From Pseudomonadota bacterium (GTDB taxonomy: Bacteria; Desulfobacterota; Desulfobacteria; Desulfobacterales; Desulfolunaceae), in assembly GCA_018818835.1 (NCBI GenBank), contig JAHIRD010000006.1:1-64000 (forward strand): a DNA stretch of 64,000 nucleotides, in the 5' to 3' direction. The notes beneath the pieces were generated by a model, which saw only the letters and a list, made by a program, of their open reading frames with translations, was not told the origin of the DNA and searched no databases. Shown piece after piece: positions 50,542-58,685 of this stretch; positions within the stretch are counted from its first letter, which is position 1, and every line of letters begins with the position of its first letter. Made by a program: the position numbers and the translations under genes.

Positions 50542-51780
50542 TTATTTATAAGCGTTCATAATGGCTTTGACTGCGGCGATTTTCCGTTTGGCCATCTGTT
50601 TTTCCTCGGGGCTCTGTGCGCAATCAAGGGCCTGATTGAGTTTGCAGGAAATGGCATTGAAATCAGGCGATCCAGGCTGTTTTTTCAAATCGTCTGCCTG
50701 TCCCATATAGTAAGAGAAAAGAAGGGGGAGGACCGCTTCTTTTGTATAAACATCTTTAATCTCTGCAGGTGCCAGCTTCCCCGGGATTTTGGCGATCAAG
50801 GTTTTCCCCATTGGGGCAAAGGACCCTTGGTACACCATCGTGGCACCCTGTTTTGACGAAACATAGTAATTGGATGTGTTTCTGATGCTTAAAAGGGTCA
50901 GGACAAACACAAGAATAGCAATGCCTGCGGCAATGGGGACCATATTGATGGACGGTCTGGGAGCCTTGAGCATTTCAACTCTGTTGACAGATTCTGAAGG
51001 GGATGCCTGAGCCTCTGTTGTTTCTGCTTCAGCTTTTGCCTTAGCCTCTGCTTCAGCCTTTGCCTTAGCTTCTGCTTCAGCCTTTGCCTTAGCTTCTGCT
51101 TCAGCCTTTGCCTTAGCTTCTGCTTCAGCCTTTGCCTTAGCTTCTGCTTCAGCCTTTGCCTTAGCTTCTGCTTCAGCCTTTGCCTTAGCCTCTGCTTCAG
51201 CTTTTGCCTTAGCCTCTGCTTCAGCTTTTGCCTTAGCTTCTGCTTCAGCTTTTGCCTTAGCCTCTGCTTCAGCTTTTGCCTTAGCCTCTGCTTCGGCTTT
51301 TGCCTTAGCCTCTGCTTCGGCTTTTGCTTTAGCTTCTGCTTCGGCTTTTGCCTTAGCCTCTGCTTCGGCTTTTGCTTTAGCTTCTGCTTCGGCTTTTGCC
51401 TTAGCCTCTGCTTCGGCTTTTGCTTTAGCCTCTGCTTCGGCTTTTGCCTTAGCCTCTGCTTCGGCTTTTGCTTTAGCCTCTGCTTCGGCTTTTGCTTTAG
51501 CCTCTGCTTCGGCTTTTGCTTTAGCTTCTGCTTCGGCTTTTGCCTTAGCCTCTGCTTCGGCTTTTGCCTTAGCTTCTGCTTCGGCTTTTGCTTTAGCTTC
51601 TGCTTCAGCCTTTGCCTTAGCTTCTGCCTCTTTTTTGATCATGGCTTCTTTTTTGGCAGAATCATCTGTTTGCTTTGCTGGAGTGCTTTTACTTGCTGCA
51701 GGTTTTTGTGCAGTTTTTTTTGCAGCTGATTTTTTGGGGGTTGTTTCCTTTTTCGTTGATTTCTTCTTATCTTTGGCCAT
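50542..51780 (-). CDS. membrane protein with about 25 AEAEAKAK repeats
   Basis: 412 aa. Residues 1-45 are Lys/Ala/Thr-rich ([20 protein letters not shown]), like histone-H1-type tails. Residues about 50-255 are perfect 8-residue repeats AEAEAKAK. A linker and one membrane helix ([19 protein letters not shown], about 282-302) follow. The C-terminal domain has about 110 residues ([19 protein letters not shown], two Cys, helical end). With Lys-rich N-terminus inside, the C-terminal domain should face the periplasm. E and K spaced four apart favour a long single alpha-helix. The repeat unit is also that of the EAK16 self-assembling peptide. Family unknown; TolA-like only in style. Confidence 0.85.
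51023..51628 (-). repeat. 24-bp minisatellite coding AEAEAKAK
   Basis: About 25 copies of a 24-bp unit with only synonymous differences (AGCC/GGCT and CCTTA/CTTTA variants). Identical variants cluster in blocks: AGCC-type at about 51050-51190, GGCT-type in the middle. This indicates recent copy-number change by slippage or recombination while the protein stays in frame. Confidence 0.9.
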
Positions 51781-53917: not shown

Positions 53918-54727
53918 TCAAAGACCTTTTTCAAGCCTTCTTTTGGAAAATATGTCATCGGCAAGGTTCTGATTGAATGCAACCTGGCTGATGGTGATGT
54001 CTGTTTTGTGAACAACGTCATCACCGCGTTTTTTGATTACCTTGATGCTCAGGCTGACCCATATCCCTTCAATTTTCTGAAGATCATCAAAATCAATTAG
54101 CTTGATATAATCTCCTTCGGTTGTCCAGGCTTTAATCCGGGTGACCATATAATTGTCCTGCCTGATAGCATAAATGGATTTTTTGTACCCTGTTTCATCC
54201 ATGACTTTTTCGGAACGGGGCGTGGATTCAATCAACCAACACTGGGCTCCTTTAAGATCAAGTTCCTTGAGGAGTTTGAAATCGTAGTCCGGCAACTCAC
54301 GGGAACTCATATCCGAATAGTTCATGTCCGAACCCATGAAACTTCCATTCTTGTCATTGGATGCAATGCGCTTGGATTTTCCCAGGGCTGGCAGGTAAAG
54401 GAACTGGTCGTCATCTTTTGTGGGGTCATCATAATCAAGGGTGAGAAATCCTGTGTTTTTGATACTGGGCGGATCCACGATGAACATGATGGTATGGGTG
54501 TCCTTGCCATGGTCCTTGGAAAAAATTTTGAAATATTTTTTTCTCTCATCGTTGTTCTTATCGATGAGGACCATAAGCATGTCATTGGTGCGATTGTCGC
54601 CATTATCCCTGTCGTCGACCTTCTGCATGATCTCACGGGCTTTGGGATCATCGGCAAAAGAGAAGGCAGGGGTAATCAGGGTCATGGTGATCATGAGGAT
54701 GAAAAGGGTGGCCAGATGTTTTTGCAT
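53918..54727 (-). CDS. outer-membrane lipoprotein-sorting (LolA-like) protein
   Basis: 269 aa with signal peptide (LATLFILMITMTLITPAFSFA). The mature protein follows the LolA-like group often encoded with RND exporters: DPKAREIMQKVDDRDNGDN, IMFIVDPPSIKNTGFL, FLYLPALGKSKRI, DYDFKLLKEL. No RND gene is adjacent. TTGGAGACC lies upstream of the ATG. It has its own promoter and stands downstream of the GEMM riboswitch-terminator unit. Confidence 0.85.
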   Translation of the reverse strand: MQKHLATLFILMITMTLITPAFSFADDPKAREIMQKVDDRDNGDNRTNDMLMVLIDKNNDERKKYFKIFSKDHGKDTHTIMFIVDPPSIKNTGFLTLDYDDPTKDDDQFLYLPALGKSKRIASNDKNGSFMGSDMNYSDMSSRELPDYDFKLLKELDLKGAQCWLIESTPRSEKVMDETGYKKSIYAIRQDNYMVTRIKAWTTEGDYIKLIDFDDLQKIEGIWVSLSIKVIKKRGDDVVHKTDITISQVAFNQNLADDIFSKRRLEKGL

Positions 54728-54847: not shown

Positions 54848-54876
54848 GAATTATGGTGGATGGGGGAAAATGTCAA
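54848..54876 (-). promoter_or_regulatory. sigma-70-type promoter of the LolA-like gene
   Basis: On the minus strand, TTGACA (54876-54871), a 17-base spacer, and TAATTC (54853-54848), leaving a leader of about 115 nt. It lies downstream of the riboswitch terminator, so the gene may be transcribed independently of the riboswitch. Confidence 0.55.
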
Positions 54877-55012: not shown

Positions 55013-55245
55013 CAAGCTAAGGCAGCCCTGCTACCATGTCTCTATACACTTTCCAGGATTTACAAACTATTCTTTCGAGATCATTATTTTTTTTACGTTG
55101 ATGTTAGATGAATCTGCCTTGTTTATTAACAAAACGATTCGTTTAAAATCGATCTCTACTTAAATTAAACCCGAACGTTAATGTTATAAAGGGTTAGGCC
55201 AGTGGCTTTGCGTCCCACTCTTTCGGGTGGTTTGCTTTTAGCTTG
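55013..55245 (-). ncRNA. GEMM-I cyclic-dinucleotide riboswitch with large P3 insertion, GEMM-Ib-like (A20)
   Basis: Read on the minus strand. P1 5' strand CAAGCTAA (55245-55238), then AAGCAAACC. The P2 hairpin is closed by CCAC..GTGG with a CGAAAG tetraloop, followed by GGGACGCAAAGCC (A47 kept) and ACTGGCCTAA. After about 145 inserted bases come GAGACATGG, TAGCAGGGCTGCC (C92 kept) and the P1 3' strand TTAGCTTG (55020-55013), a perfect 8-bp match. P3 can form as CCA-c-TG with CATGG. Standard aptamers are about 85-90 nt; this spans 233. The base before GCAAACC, position 20 in Vc2 numbering, is A. A20 is the mark of GEMM-Ib riboswitches selective for 3',3'-cGAMP in Geobacter. Promoter and terminator abut it. 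Confidence 0.85.
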
Positions 55246-55250
55246 ATTCC

Positions 55251-55279
55251 ATTATAATGGGCTTCTTTGGGGAAATCAA
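55251..55279 (-). promoter_or_regulatory. sigma-70 promoter of the GEMM riboswitch
   Basis: On the minus strand TTGATT (55279-55274), a 17-base spacer and a perfect TATAAT (55256-55251). Transcription would start six to eight bases further on, right at the P1 stem of the aptamer. It is located after the GT2 stop codon, so the riboswitch has its own transcript. Confidence 0.8.
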
Positions 55280-55347: not shown

Positions 55348-56082
55348 TTATGTATTTGCACGAAAATATAAAGATAATCCGGGAATGAGCCGTTTGGTGA
55401 CACAGAGGCTGAACAGATGCGAAAACTTATAGAGTCCTTCATGGGTGAGATTGAAACGGCTTTTTCGCAAATCATGGCAGCCCACAGGAATCTCCATAAT
55501 ACGTTTTTCATCGTGATAGGCACTGAAAAGAATCAGAACCACATAAAAGGTATGGCTGTCCAAAAAAGGGAGATAGGGGAGAATGGCCGATTTTCGGTAA
55601 GCTTTGGCTGCAATGGAATAGTCACTGTATGAAATCCCCAGCAGAACTTCTGCAGAGTAGATAAAGATTCGGCTGGCGGCTTTCCGGAGGAGTGATCGCT
55701 TCTGGTTCCCGTTTTTCTTTGACCCCACCACCACATGGACACGGGACAGGAGATGATAGGCTGTTTCAATAAATGAAAGGTCAATGGAAAGATCCATATC
55801 CACCGTGATGATACGGTCGAAACTGGCGATTTTTACACCCAGAGCAAAGGCACGGCCAACGCCTTTCCGGGGAAGGTGGAAAAATCGGACATAAGGTCGT
55901 TTTTTTTCAAGTGATTCAAGGATAGCGCACGTACGGTCCGTTGATCCGTTGCTTCCGATGATGATTTCAAAGGGAAGACCCAGGGTTTCAAGGTGGGTTG
56001 CCAGGATTTGGATATGGCTTTCTATAAGGGATTCTTCATTGAAAACCGGAATAAAGATAGATAAGCCGGGTATCTGGGTCAT
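55348..56082 (-). CDS. GT2-family glycosyltransferase
   Basis: 244 aa from ATG 56082 (overlaps the upstream gene by four bases, ATGA). GT-A fold: GLSIFIPVFNEESLIESHI, IIIGSNGSTDRT, GVGRAFALGVKIA, and the metal-binding DMDLSID. It resembles polyprenyl-phosphate sugar transferases. With the upstream multi-membrane protein it probably supplies a lipid-linked sugar for a cell-surface glycan. Confidence 0.88.
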   Translation of the reverse strand: MTQIPGLSIFIPVFNEESLIESHIQILATHLETLGLPFEIIIGSNGSTDRTCAILESLEKKRPYVRFFHLPRKGVGRAFALGVKIASFDRIITVDMDLSIDLSFIETAYHLLSRVHVVVGSKKNGNQKRSLLRKAASRIFIYSAEVLLGISYSDYSIAAKAYRKSAILPYLPFLDSHTFYVVLILFSAYHDEKRIMEIPVGCHDLRKSRFNLTHEGLYKFSHLFSLCVTKRLIPGLSLYFRANT

Positions 56083-58685
56083 GGTTGTCTGCTTTCGTGT
56101 AAACGGGCCAGGGCTTCCGGAGCCCAAGGGCTCTGAAAATAATCCCGGGCAAGTTGTCTGAAATACGTCATGGCCATGGTTTCATCTCCGGATTTTTGAC
56201 AGCATAATCCCATGTGGAAGAGGGCTTCGGCAGATCGTCTGCTTTCTGGGTAGTCCAGGACAAGGTCTTTAAAAACTCTGAGACTTTGATCCCATTCCCC
56301 GACATTAAAATAACACAAGGCAAGATGAAAGCACGCGTCATCGGAAATCATGGTTTCAGGATACCGTGTGACCACATCCTTAAACATGGATTTTGCCTGG
56401 GTATAATCCTTTTCGGAAAAAAGTTTCAGGGCTTTGATGTACTGGGGAACAGGATAGGACGGCGGCAGAAAAAAAAGAGCCGTAAGTAGCATAACAAGAC
56501 TTGATGACCCCACGACCAGAACGCAAATCCAGCCGGGGGCTTGGGCCGAATCAGGCCTCAAGAGGTCAGTTTTTCGTCCTGCTGTGAAAAATAAAAGGAT
56601 GGGTATCAGGCAAAGGCTCAGGATGGAGACGATCAGGCCCGTATGCTCAATCATGGAGGCTTCATAATAAAGACGAACCGTGGATGATGTGGGATAAACC
56701 AGCATGAAGCCGGGTGATGCCAGGTAGATTTTATCCGCGCCTCTAACGTGCCAGTTGGGATGATAAGACACCTTGACAAGTAAGGGCTGGCCAGGGGTGG
56801 CCTGATCAATAAGGATCTCATCCTGGGATAAGCGGGCCGAGATTTTTTTCAGTGCCTTGTCCAGGGCAATGGGCCGGAGATGCTCGATTTTGGTAGGGTC
56901 AATGGGTGTCATACGCTCCAGATCTATGGGATCAGGATGGGTGGTATACACCAGGGGAATGGACAGGTTGCCTTTTCTGAACCAGGTGAAGAACAGACGT
57001 CTGAAATCTCCTTGGACCAAAAGGGCAGGTTTGAATGGCAGAGCCTCCACATACCCGCTCCCTATATCCGCAAGATCGAACACCATAAAGGGGCCGGATT
57101 GATATCCAAGGGTATAGGCTGGGTTTTCAAGGGCTGCCTTCTGGGTTCCGGGCTCTGTCAGTATAATCTGTCCCACATGAAAAAGGCGAAGATGTTGAAT
57201 CGCACGATTGAGATCCAGGCCAGGGTAGACATAATCCGCAAAGGGCGTGGAGGGATGGGCCGATATTTCCGCCTGGATGTAATAAATATAGGGAGACAGA
57301 AGGCTTGCCTGGATGTATAGGCCTTCTAAGGTGCTTCTGCCGCTGAAGAAGGGCAAGGACTCAAAGGCCCTTATACTGCCTGCCTTTTCATAGAGGGGGC
57401 TGTGCTCATAGACGACCCTTGGATCGTTCTCAGAGCCCTTCAGATAGCTTGTTACAGCAAGAAAATCTCCATAAAGGGGCATGTTCTCGAACCCTTTGAA
57501 ATTGTGCATGGACCAGTCCCTGATATGCACTTCCCGGCTATGAATCCAGGCAAAGGTCGAGAACAGAAAAAAGACCATAAAACAGGCCGATGACGTTTTT
57601 TCCCATGGCAGATGTTTGAACACAAAGGCCCCGGAAATGATCAGGAAAAATTGAAAAAAAGGCAGGAAACGCACATCCACAAGATTAAAACGGTAGCCCA
57701 GGGCATAGAGCAAAAGACCCGTTAGGGCCAGATAAGCAACAAAAAAGGGGGCGGCATCCAAGGGTTTTTGCCTGTCCCCAGGGCTGAGACGTCGGATAAA
57801 AATGGATATGACCGGGGCGGCAAGGGACAAAAGCATAAAGGGCCGGATCAGGACTGGGAAAACCTGGTCCAGGACCTGGTTCAGGTCCGAAAAAATCCAG
57901 ATAAATCCGAATTTTGTGGTCAAGGGCATGTGTGCCATAAGGGGAAAGAGCCAGAAGGCCATGAGGCCTATGGCCAAACCGTGGATCAGGATCAGATCAA
58001 TGAGGTGTCTGATGAACCGTCCGGGTGTAAGCAAAAAGTACAGGGATCCGAATCCTGCAAAAAGAAGGGCGTAGCCATGGCTGAACCCCGTGAGGCATAA
58101 AAGCAGGGCGCATGATACATAACGGGGTTTTTCATGGAAATGATTGTACAAGACGCCAAGAAACAGGACAGCCAGGGAAAAGCCCAGGGCATAACAAAAG
58201 GTGCCGGAAAGGGTGGACAGGATATTGCCGCCCCAGATGGACTGGCCTTCCATGAAAAGAAACGCAAGGCTTGAAATTGCTCCGGCCAGGCAGACCGCCT
58301 TGGTTTGTTTCAGTTGATGGAAAAAGAACCATGTGGCCCATGGCAGGGTGAGAACGCCTATAATCGTAACCAGCTTGAATGCGATGGTCAGAGGTAGGAA
58401 CCATGAGAGTCCTGCCATGATAAGGAAGGGCAGGAAAAAATAATTTTGAAGCATGGAAAAACCACCCAGATTTCCCATGCACCATCCGGTCAGGTTTCCT
58501 TTGGGCAGAAGCTGGTGTTTGAGATACCATGCCGTGAAAACATGGGATGCCGTGTCTCCTCCGGTTTCGGTGCTGTTCAAAAATACAAGGGAGGGGGTGA
58601 GAAAATAAAGAGTGAACCCGGATATCATGACGAGAACGATGCAATCAAAAAGGCGGTTGGTCCATGTGGCTGGGGTCGTGGCCAT
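56079..58685 (-). CDS. large membrane protein, GT-C/PTPS-related type, with C-terminal TPRs
   Basis: 868 aa. At least ten membrane helices span residues 15-400. The first extracytoplasmic loop has NSTETGGDTASHVFTAWYLKH, an acidic motif like the catalytic loop of GT-C enzymes. A large soluble domain (about 400-690) is followed by two more helices and three TPR-like repeats (ALKLFSEKDYTQAKSMFKDVV; ALCYFNVGEWDQSLRVFKDLV). It resembles the 6-pyruvoyl-tetrahydropterin-synthase-related membrane family, whose role may be glycan transfer. Coupled to the GT2 gene. Confidence 0.78.
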   Translation of the reverse strand: MATTPATWTNRLFDCIVLVMISGFTLYFLTPSLVFLNSTETGGDTASHVFTAWYLKHQLLPKGNLTGWCMGNLGGFSMLQNYFFLPFLIMAGLSWFLPLTIAFKLVTIIGVLTLPWATWFFFHQLKQTKAVCLAGAISSLAFLFMEGQSIWGGNILSTLSGTFCYALGFSLAVLFLGVLYNHFHEKPRYVSCALLLCLTGFSHGYALLFAGFGSLYFLLTPGRFIRHLIDLILIHGLAIGLMAFWLFPLMAHMPLTTKFGFIWIFSDLNQVLDQVFPVLIRPFMLLSLAAPVISIFIRRLSPGDRQKPLDAAPFFVAYLALTGLLLYALGYRFNLVDVRFLPFFQFFLIISGAFVFKHLPWEKTSSACFMVFFLFSTFAWIHSREVHIRDWSMHNFKGFENMPLYGDFLAVTSYLKGSENDPRVVYEHSPLYEKAGSIRAFESLPFFSGRSTLEGLYIQASLLSPYIYYIQAEISAHPSTPFADYVYPGLDLNRAIQHLRLFHVGQIILTEPGTQKAALENPAYTLGYQSGPFMVFDLADIGSGYVEALPFKPALLVQGDFRRLFFTWFRKGNLSIPLVYTTHPDPIDLERMTPIDPTKIEHLRPIALDKALKKISARLSQDEILIDQATPGQPLLVKVSYHPNWHVRGADKIYLASPGFMLVYPTSSTVRLYYEASMIEHTGLIVSILSLCLIPILLFFTAGRKTDLLRPDSAQAPGWICVLVVGSSSLVMLLTALFFLPPSYPVPQYIKALKLFSEKDYTQAKSMFKDVVTRYPETMISDDACFHLALCYFNVGEWDQSLRVFKDLVLDYPESRRSAEALFHMGLCCQKSGDETMAMTYFRQLARDYFQSPWAPEALARLHESRQP

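Follow-up and report, generated by a model that had tools for sequence, protein, structure and literature searches.

The minus strand of the window, that is, of the whole 64,000-nucleotide stretch of DNA analysed here, carries a GEMM-I aptamer with A at the ligand-selectivity position 20 (A20), and the P3 loop of this aptamer is expanded into a large RNA domain of a kind that recurs, in the same loop, in other genomes. The element has its own promoter and its own terminator, as a free-standing small RNA does. GEMM-I ranks with the most thoroughly studied classes of riboswitch and is regarded as a switch acting in cis. We favour, giving it about an even chance, the reading that the locus produces a free-standing RNA of about 275 nt that binds a cyclic dinucleotide; its chief rival is cis attenuation of the neighbouring LolA-like gene. 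If the favoured reading is true, a separate small RNA in place of the usual switch ahead of a gene would be a new cellular use of this sensor, and a GEMM-I sub-class with an added conserved domain and without a link to a neighbouring gene would represent the sensor used as a mobile RNA part.

Organization of the locus and the core aptamer

The features of the element and of its surroundings are listed in Table 1. All motifs described by an earlier sequence-only reading were present at their places on the minus strand when the sequence was checked, including the TATAAT promoter (TTGATT-17-TATAAT, 55279-55251) and the P1 strands CAAGCTAA and TTAGCTTG, which pair perfectly across a span of 233 nt. 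The promoter matches the consensus at 10 of 12 positions (p 0.015 against shuffles), and a TTGnnn-16/17-TAnnnT site lies at the equivalent place in most other copies with a long P3 loop. P1 should mark the transcription start expected from the TATAAT promoter.

Table 1 Features of the GEMM-I element and its neighbours in the window
Feature	Position	Strand	Basis or remark
Whole element: promoter, GEMM-I core (A20), P3 loop, P1, terminator	55279-54968	minus	
Promoter: -35 TTGATT (55279-55274), 17 nt, -10 TATAAT (55256-55251)	55251..55279	-	sequence
P1 5' strand CAAGCTAA	55238..55245	-	sequence; paired in minimum-energy fold
A20, GEMM-I ligand-selectivity position	55236	-	alignment to RF03167 and to relatives
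P2 hairpin GCAAACC-ACC-CGAAAG-AGT-GGGACGC, with CGAAAG tetraloop and conserved GGGACGC	55210..55235	-	RF03167 alignment
P3 5' strand AGCCACTGGCC (55207-55197) and CCTAA half of tetraloop-receptor-like loop	55194..55207	-	RF03167 alignment; kept in relatives
P3 extension domain, 158 nt	55036..55193	-	G001 homologue; long domains of this loop in 13 other genomes; folds
Outer helix of the insert: CTTTATA with TATAGAG, then irregular rod	55191-55185 with 55046-55040	-	folds
P3 3' strand GGTAGCAGGGCT (55035-55024) and GCC; C92 equivalent at 55021	55021..55035	-	RF03167 alignment
P1 3' strand TTAGCTTG	55013..55020	-	sequence and fold
Intrinsic terminator: 11-bp stem (8 GC), 7-nt loop, 8 U; 8 nt past P1	54968..55004	-	sequence
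Possible separate promoter of the LolA-like gene, TTGACA-15-CATAAT	54848..54876	-	pattern only; p 0.01 against gap shuffles; spacing unusually short
LolA_like protein (PF17131), 269 aa; next gene downstream, start 240 nt past terminator	53918..54727	-	
Upstream gene: glycosyltransferase family 2	55348..56127	-	also upstream of the G001 copy
Next gene further up: membrane protein with PTPS_related domain	56079-58685	-	also upstream of the G001 copy

The GEMM-I aptamer and its A20 are firmly identified. The RNA combines a GNRA-type tetraloop on P2, the GGGACGCAAAGCC element, P3 with its tetraloop receptor and a closing P1. The model RF03167 (c-di-GMP-I-GGC) aligns to it end to end over all of its 80 positions, with a 152-nt local end across the insert, at 52.4 bits (E 2.5e-11 in a search of 901 bases), which is below its gathering score of 59. 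RF01051 (c-di-GMP-I), the family that the earlier reading had proposed searching, scores 39.7, above its gathering score of 35, but its alignment (55162-55246) is wrong in the 3' half, which it takes from within the insert. Both models are built for a short P3 loop, unlike that of the window. The predicted A at position 20 (55236) is borne out by the RF03167 alignment and by the relatives alike. GGTAGC-AGG-GCTGCC, also pointed out previously, is present, although GGTAGC and GCTGCC form no hairpin of their own; in the RF03167 alignment they are the P3 3' strand, paired with GCC-A-CTGGCC.

The full RNA folds better than all of 200 shuffles (z -4.4). Over AGCAAACC...GGCCTAA, the window sequence recurs unchanged in L093, a short A20 relative whose loop measures 24 nt. 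The window genome contains 14 GEMM-I copies; the others inspected have G20, mostly with a swapped closing pair (read by eye).

A conserved domain in the P3 loop

A20 cores were searched in 389 genomes of the order, and the core regardless of position 20 in 389 order and 395 phylum genomes; P3 loop length was measured on the fetched copies as the distance between the halves of the tetraloop receptor. The approximately 100 GEMM-I copies from these 389 order and 395 phylum genomes form two size classes, about 84 short copies with loops of 12-31 nt and 15 long copies with loops of 118-188 nt, with none between 31 and 118 nt. The earlier estimate of about 145 extra bases was a fair one, because the window loop measures 158 nt against 12-31 nt in those short copies whose loop was measured. 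Long domains sit on A20 (eight copies) and G20 (seven copies) aptamers alike, and all 15 inserts share their position, a roughly similar size and an irregular rod that stacks on the tetraloop receptor.

Eleven of the long inserts, from genera g86, g82 and g114, can be aligned along their whole length. A structure of 42 pairs holds in 89.5% of the cells of this alignment, and 11 pairs show changes on both sides, compared with 5.7 in shuffles; the covariation score of 0.183 was reached by none of 500 shuffles and dropped to 0.078 or less once partners were slid. The comparison with relatives that the sequence-only reading had called for thus reveals covariation in these 11 inserts. Their internal loops are conserved and their helices covary, with loop conservation strong only within genus g86. 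A covariance model of this domain (R1) finds it in 11 of 379 genomes, once per genome and only inside GEMM-I; one of the 11, read on the opposite strand, gives a twelfth, weak match. The P3 domain is real and conserved. A single domain common to all 15 long copies was considered and rejected, because the model misses the other four inserts, which are also mostly unalignable.

The window insert is one of these four, the R1 model having no match at its locus, so what was found for the 11-member domain carries over to the window only by analogy. The window insert groups with that of G001 alone, a genome of the neighbouring genus (alignment z 8.4); both have kept the outer helix CUUUAUA/UAUA(G/A)AG, and one pair of their common outer structure has changed on both sides. 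It is weakly like the G053 insert (z 2.7), and no sequence likeness was detected to the G004 insert or to the 11-member group (z 0.4 against the G110 insert). It gives no match to any Rfam family. Known RNA families were rejected as candidates, the weak matches to atoC, ErsA and P36 falling on or around the terminator hairpin.

The insert might have arisen by neutral expansion of a permissive loop, or as a mobile element that settled there. P3 loop length does vary in GEMM-I, the window insert alone is no outlier in folding against shuffles (z -1.1), and four inserts resist alignment, as noted above. Such an origin is nevertheless very unlikely given the empty interval between the size classes, the homology with G001 and its retained outer helix, the covariation in the 11-member group and the lack of any other copy of the insert in 96 genomes. 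A repeated or mobile element was accordingly rejected, the other matches being short and AT-rich, and the inserted element that the earlier reading had offered as one option is not supported. Its other option, an extra domain, agrees with the long domains at the equivalent place in other lineages, 11 of them covarying, and with the preservation of the window insert in G001. The window insert is no accident.

It is somewhat unlikely, though plausible, that the domain is a second sensor, either by recognizing a different ligand as an aptamer or by binding a protein, which would make this a two-input RNA. The conserved internal loops and covarying helices of the 11 relatives would suit a sensor, and so would the retention of the domain on both A20 and G20 aptamers, which makes it independent of the cyclic dinucleotide sensed. 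On the other side stand the lack of a matching Rfam family, the confinement of strong loop conservation to genus g86 and the fact that the window version is not detectably the same domain.

Predicted ligand and the associated GGDEF enzyme

A20 marks cGAMP-selective GEMM-Ib RNAs, and an A20G change turns Gmet_0970 to c-di-GMP (PMC6456294); the window RNA has the A of GEMM-Ib at 55236. One GAF-GGDEF protein in the window genome (L123, contig C21) has Ser for the canonical Asp and Asp in the GGDEF motif, the combination published as the Hypr signature (PMC6456294). In its signature, GHMDGS with GGDEY, Ser replaces the Asp after GHxxG, and the Asn of NDxxGH is Val; its best match among solved GGDEF structures is 6d9m, the Hypr domain of G. 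metallireducens.

Orthologues of this Ser-type protein were found in G001, G053, G177, G216 and G342, all of which have long A20 RNAs. Ser-type GGDEF proteins thus occur in 6 of the 8 genomes with long A20 RNAs (window included) and in 0 of the 7 with long G20 RNAs (Fisher p 0.007, uncorrected for shared ancestry), the latter having either no such GGDEF match or the Asp form. G004 and G317 have A20 yet no Ser-type GGDEF among the hits inspected, and the Ser form also occurs in three genomes with short A20 RNAs. One orthologue (L311, in G289) has Thr at the signature position (GHLMGT).

Because a Hypr-like enzyme is encoded in the same genome and co-occurs with A20, the proposed preference for cGAMP is strengthened, and cGAMP is the probable ligand of the window RNA. 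Sensing of c-di-GMP, or of both dinucleotides, would fit the abundance of c-di-GMP enzymes (26 GGDEF matches in the window genome) and the G20 of the other copies inspected there; it is unlikely, however, in view of the Ser-type GGDEF that accompanies A20 in the window genome and in five of the seven other A20-long genomes, and of the published switch in selectivity upon A20G (PMC6456294). Within one genus, A20 (G342, G317) and G20 (G110, G253, G246, G299, G229, G337) versions are both found, and the cGAMP-type enzyme is present in G342 and in none of its G20 genomes, which provides a natural test of coevolution between ligand choice and enzyme.

Terminator and downstream genes

Terminators were placed by hand, and their coupling to the aptamer was evaluated with nearest-neighbour energies, without tertiary contacts or kinetics. 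By this measure, no complementarity between the 5' arm of the terminator and the aptamer was found in 13 long copies with a terminator (z -0.1 to 1.4; average about 0.5; window 0.7). In three short A20 switches of the order, the P2 hairpin can pair with the 5' arm of the terminator (z -2.9, -2.2 and -1.7); the fourth short A20 control, L102, has no complementarity either (z +0.8). The minimum-energy fold of the window RNA contains both aptamer and terminator, and no antiterminator emerges if the terminator is forbidden: the terminator arms stay without a partner, and the fold goes from -78.6 to -56.2 kcal/mol, a cost of 22. In the pilM switch, aptamer and terminator are mutually exclusive; Cd1 has both at once, in competition with an antiterminator (PMC9262584). 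Neither mode is seen in the window RNA, for which these energies gave no exclusion or coupling between terminator and aptamer fold. The insert as antiterminator was also rejected, its resemblance to the terminator being no higher than chance in most copies and suggestive only in G216 and G177, whose inserts resemble their own terminator arm (p 0.005 and below).

No conserved same-strand target gene follows these RNAs; partial recurrence was seen within genus g86 only. The LolA-like gene was rejected as a conserved target, with a GEMM match at none of nine orthologue loci. The window and G001 have both upstream genes in common, and their downstream genes are unrelated, LolA-like in the former and reading as arginyl-tRNA synthetase in the latter (assigned by eye). 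The next same-strand open reading frame (ORF) lies at a median of 215 nt from long copies, compared with 64 nt from short ones (p 9e-5), and in the window, G216, G177 and G342 the gap before the gene contains promoter-like sites above chance. In G004 and G053, the genes downstream all lie on the opposite strand. In genus g86, a cNMP-binding protein follows in four genomes and an MEKQISV protein in several. Four long RNAs (L168, L172, L173 and L095, in G171, G253, G229 and G317) are followed by a conserved protein of some 120 aa that starts MEKQISVAKHENSILPGFRNKI; no Pfam match was found in the piece searched. The copy in G299 (L175 / L289) has no terminator, and just 21 nt separate it from the following cNMP-binding-protein ORF, which has a ribosome-binding site, a natural RNA-gene fusion. 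Further along the minus strand of the window, 50542-51780 encodes a 412-aa protein in which AEAEAKAK-type repeats form a long run.

Control of the LolA-like gene by an ordinary cGAMP riboswitch that attenuates transcription, with the P3 extension as a structural ornament and with kinetics, or pairings outside simple energy rules, governing the terminator, is possible, though short of probable. It would account for the conventional succession of promoter, aptamer and terminator on the same strand as the following gene, for a same-strand ORF within about 520 nt of 13 of the 15 long copies (that of G004 being a doubtful 83-aa frame) and for the gene fusion in G299; the recurrence of downstream genes within genus g86 is what cis control predicts, and GEMM-Ib switches of Geobacter use terminators (PMC6456294, PMC9262584). 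The non-complementary, coexisting terminator and aptamer, the missing antiterminator and the LolA-like orthologues devoid of GEMM argue against it, as do the 240 nt between terminator and LolA-like start, behind a possible promoter of its own, and the two relatives with only opposite-strand genes downstream. Of what the sequence-only reading described, a GEMM-I aptamer that has A20 and a giant insertion in P3 is supported; its word riboswitch is in doubt, because no alternative pairing couples terminator to aptamer and the next gene downstream is far away and lacks conservation.

Proposed function and relation to known systems

According to the favoured reading, that of a free-standing RNA, the locus would encode one transcript of about 275 nt with its own promoter and its own ligand-independent terminator. 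Its core, a GEMM-Ib (A20) aptamer, would bind 3',3'-cGAMP better than c-di-GMP, and the Ser-type GAF-GGDEF enzyme of the same genome would be the source of cGAMP. The rod-like domain of about 150 nt would extend the P3 helix past the tetraloop receptor and therefore leave the aptamer fold intact. The RNA would work in trans, or as a ligand store; the P3 domain is the proposed effector part, which may bind a protein or pair with target RNAs, and ligand binding would set the fold or the stability of the RNA. More broadly, and tentatively, Desulfobacterales may make free-standing small RNAs in which GEMM-I reads the cyclic dinucleotide and the output is the P3 domain or, in other lineages, a bare aptamer with a U-run right after P1; the A20 versions would then be the first cGAMP-controlled trans-acting RNAs. 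A literature search, largely confined to non-subscription journals, turned up neither a large P3 insertion nor a free-standing GEMM RNA.

Riboswitches for 3',3'-cGAMP of the GEMM-Ib type were reportedly described in Geobacter by Kellenberger and by Nelson in 2015. The window RNA resembles the Geobacter GEMM-Ib RNAs (PMC6456294, PMC8835794) in its A20 GEMM-I core, in the Ser-type GGDEF of the same genome and in the promoter and terminator around the aptamer; unlike them, it has a P3 extension of about 150 nt, a terminator uncoupled by base pairing and no conserved target gene. With respect to the Rfam families, it resembles RF03167 in aligning throughout, and differs in scoring under the cut-off. 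The trans-acting riboswitch RNAs of Gram-positive bacteria include SreA, Rli55 and EutX, whose aptamer class differs from GEMM-I. Such RNAs exist as a class (PMC7266159), and the proposed likeness is an aptamer on an RNA whose site of action lies apart from the neighbouring gene.

Other GEMM-I arrangements

Four short A20 copies (L093, L096, L098 and L149) have a run of 7-9 T within a few bases of P1, so the aptamer itself could be the terminator hairpin; no gene start lies nearby. Multiple aptamers in direct tandem were observed in G000, five at C122:8549-8972 (minus strand; L003, L004, L007, L010 and L013) and four at C136:52378-52727 (minus strand; L001, L002, L005 and L008). The consulted portion of a survey of the GEMM-I class gives 347 doublets and 12 triplets and shows no larger array (PMC9481103). 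In G000, each of the two tandem arrays is closely followed by a DUF6160 protein gene.
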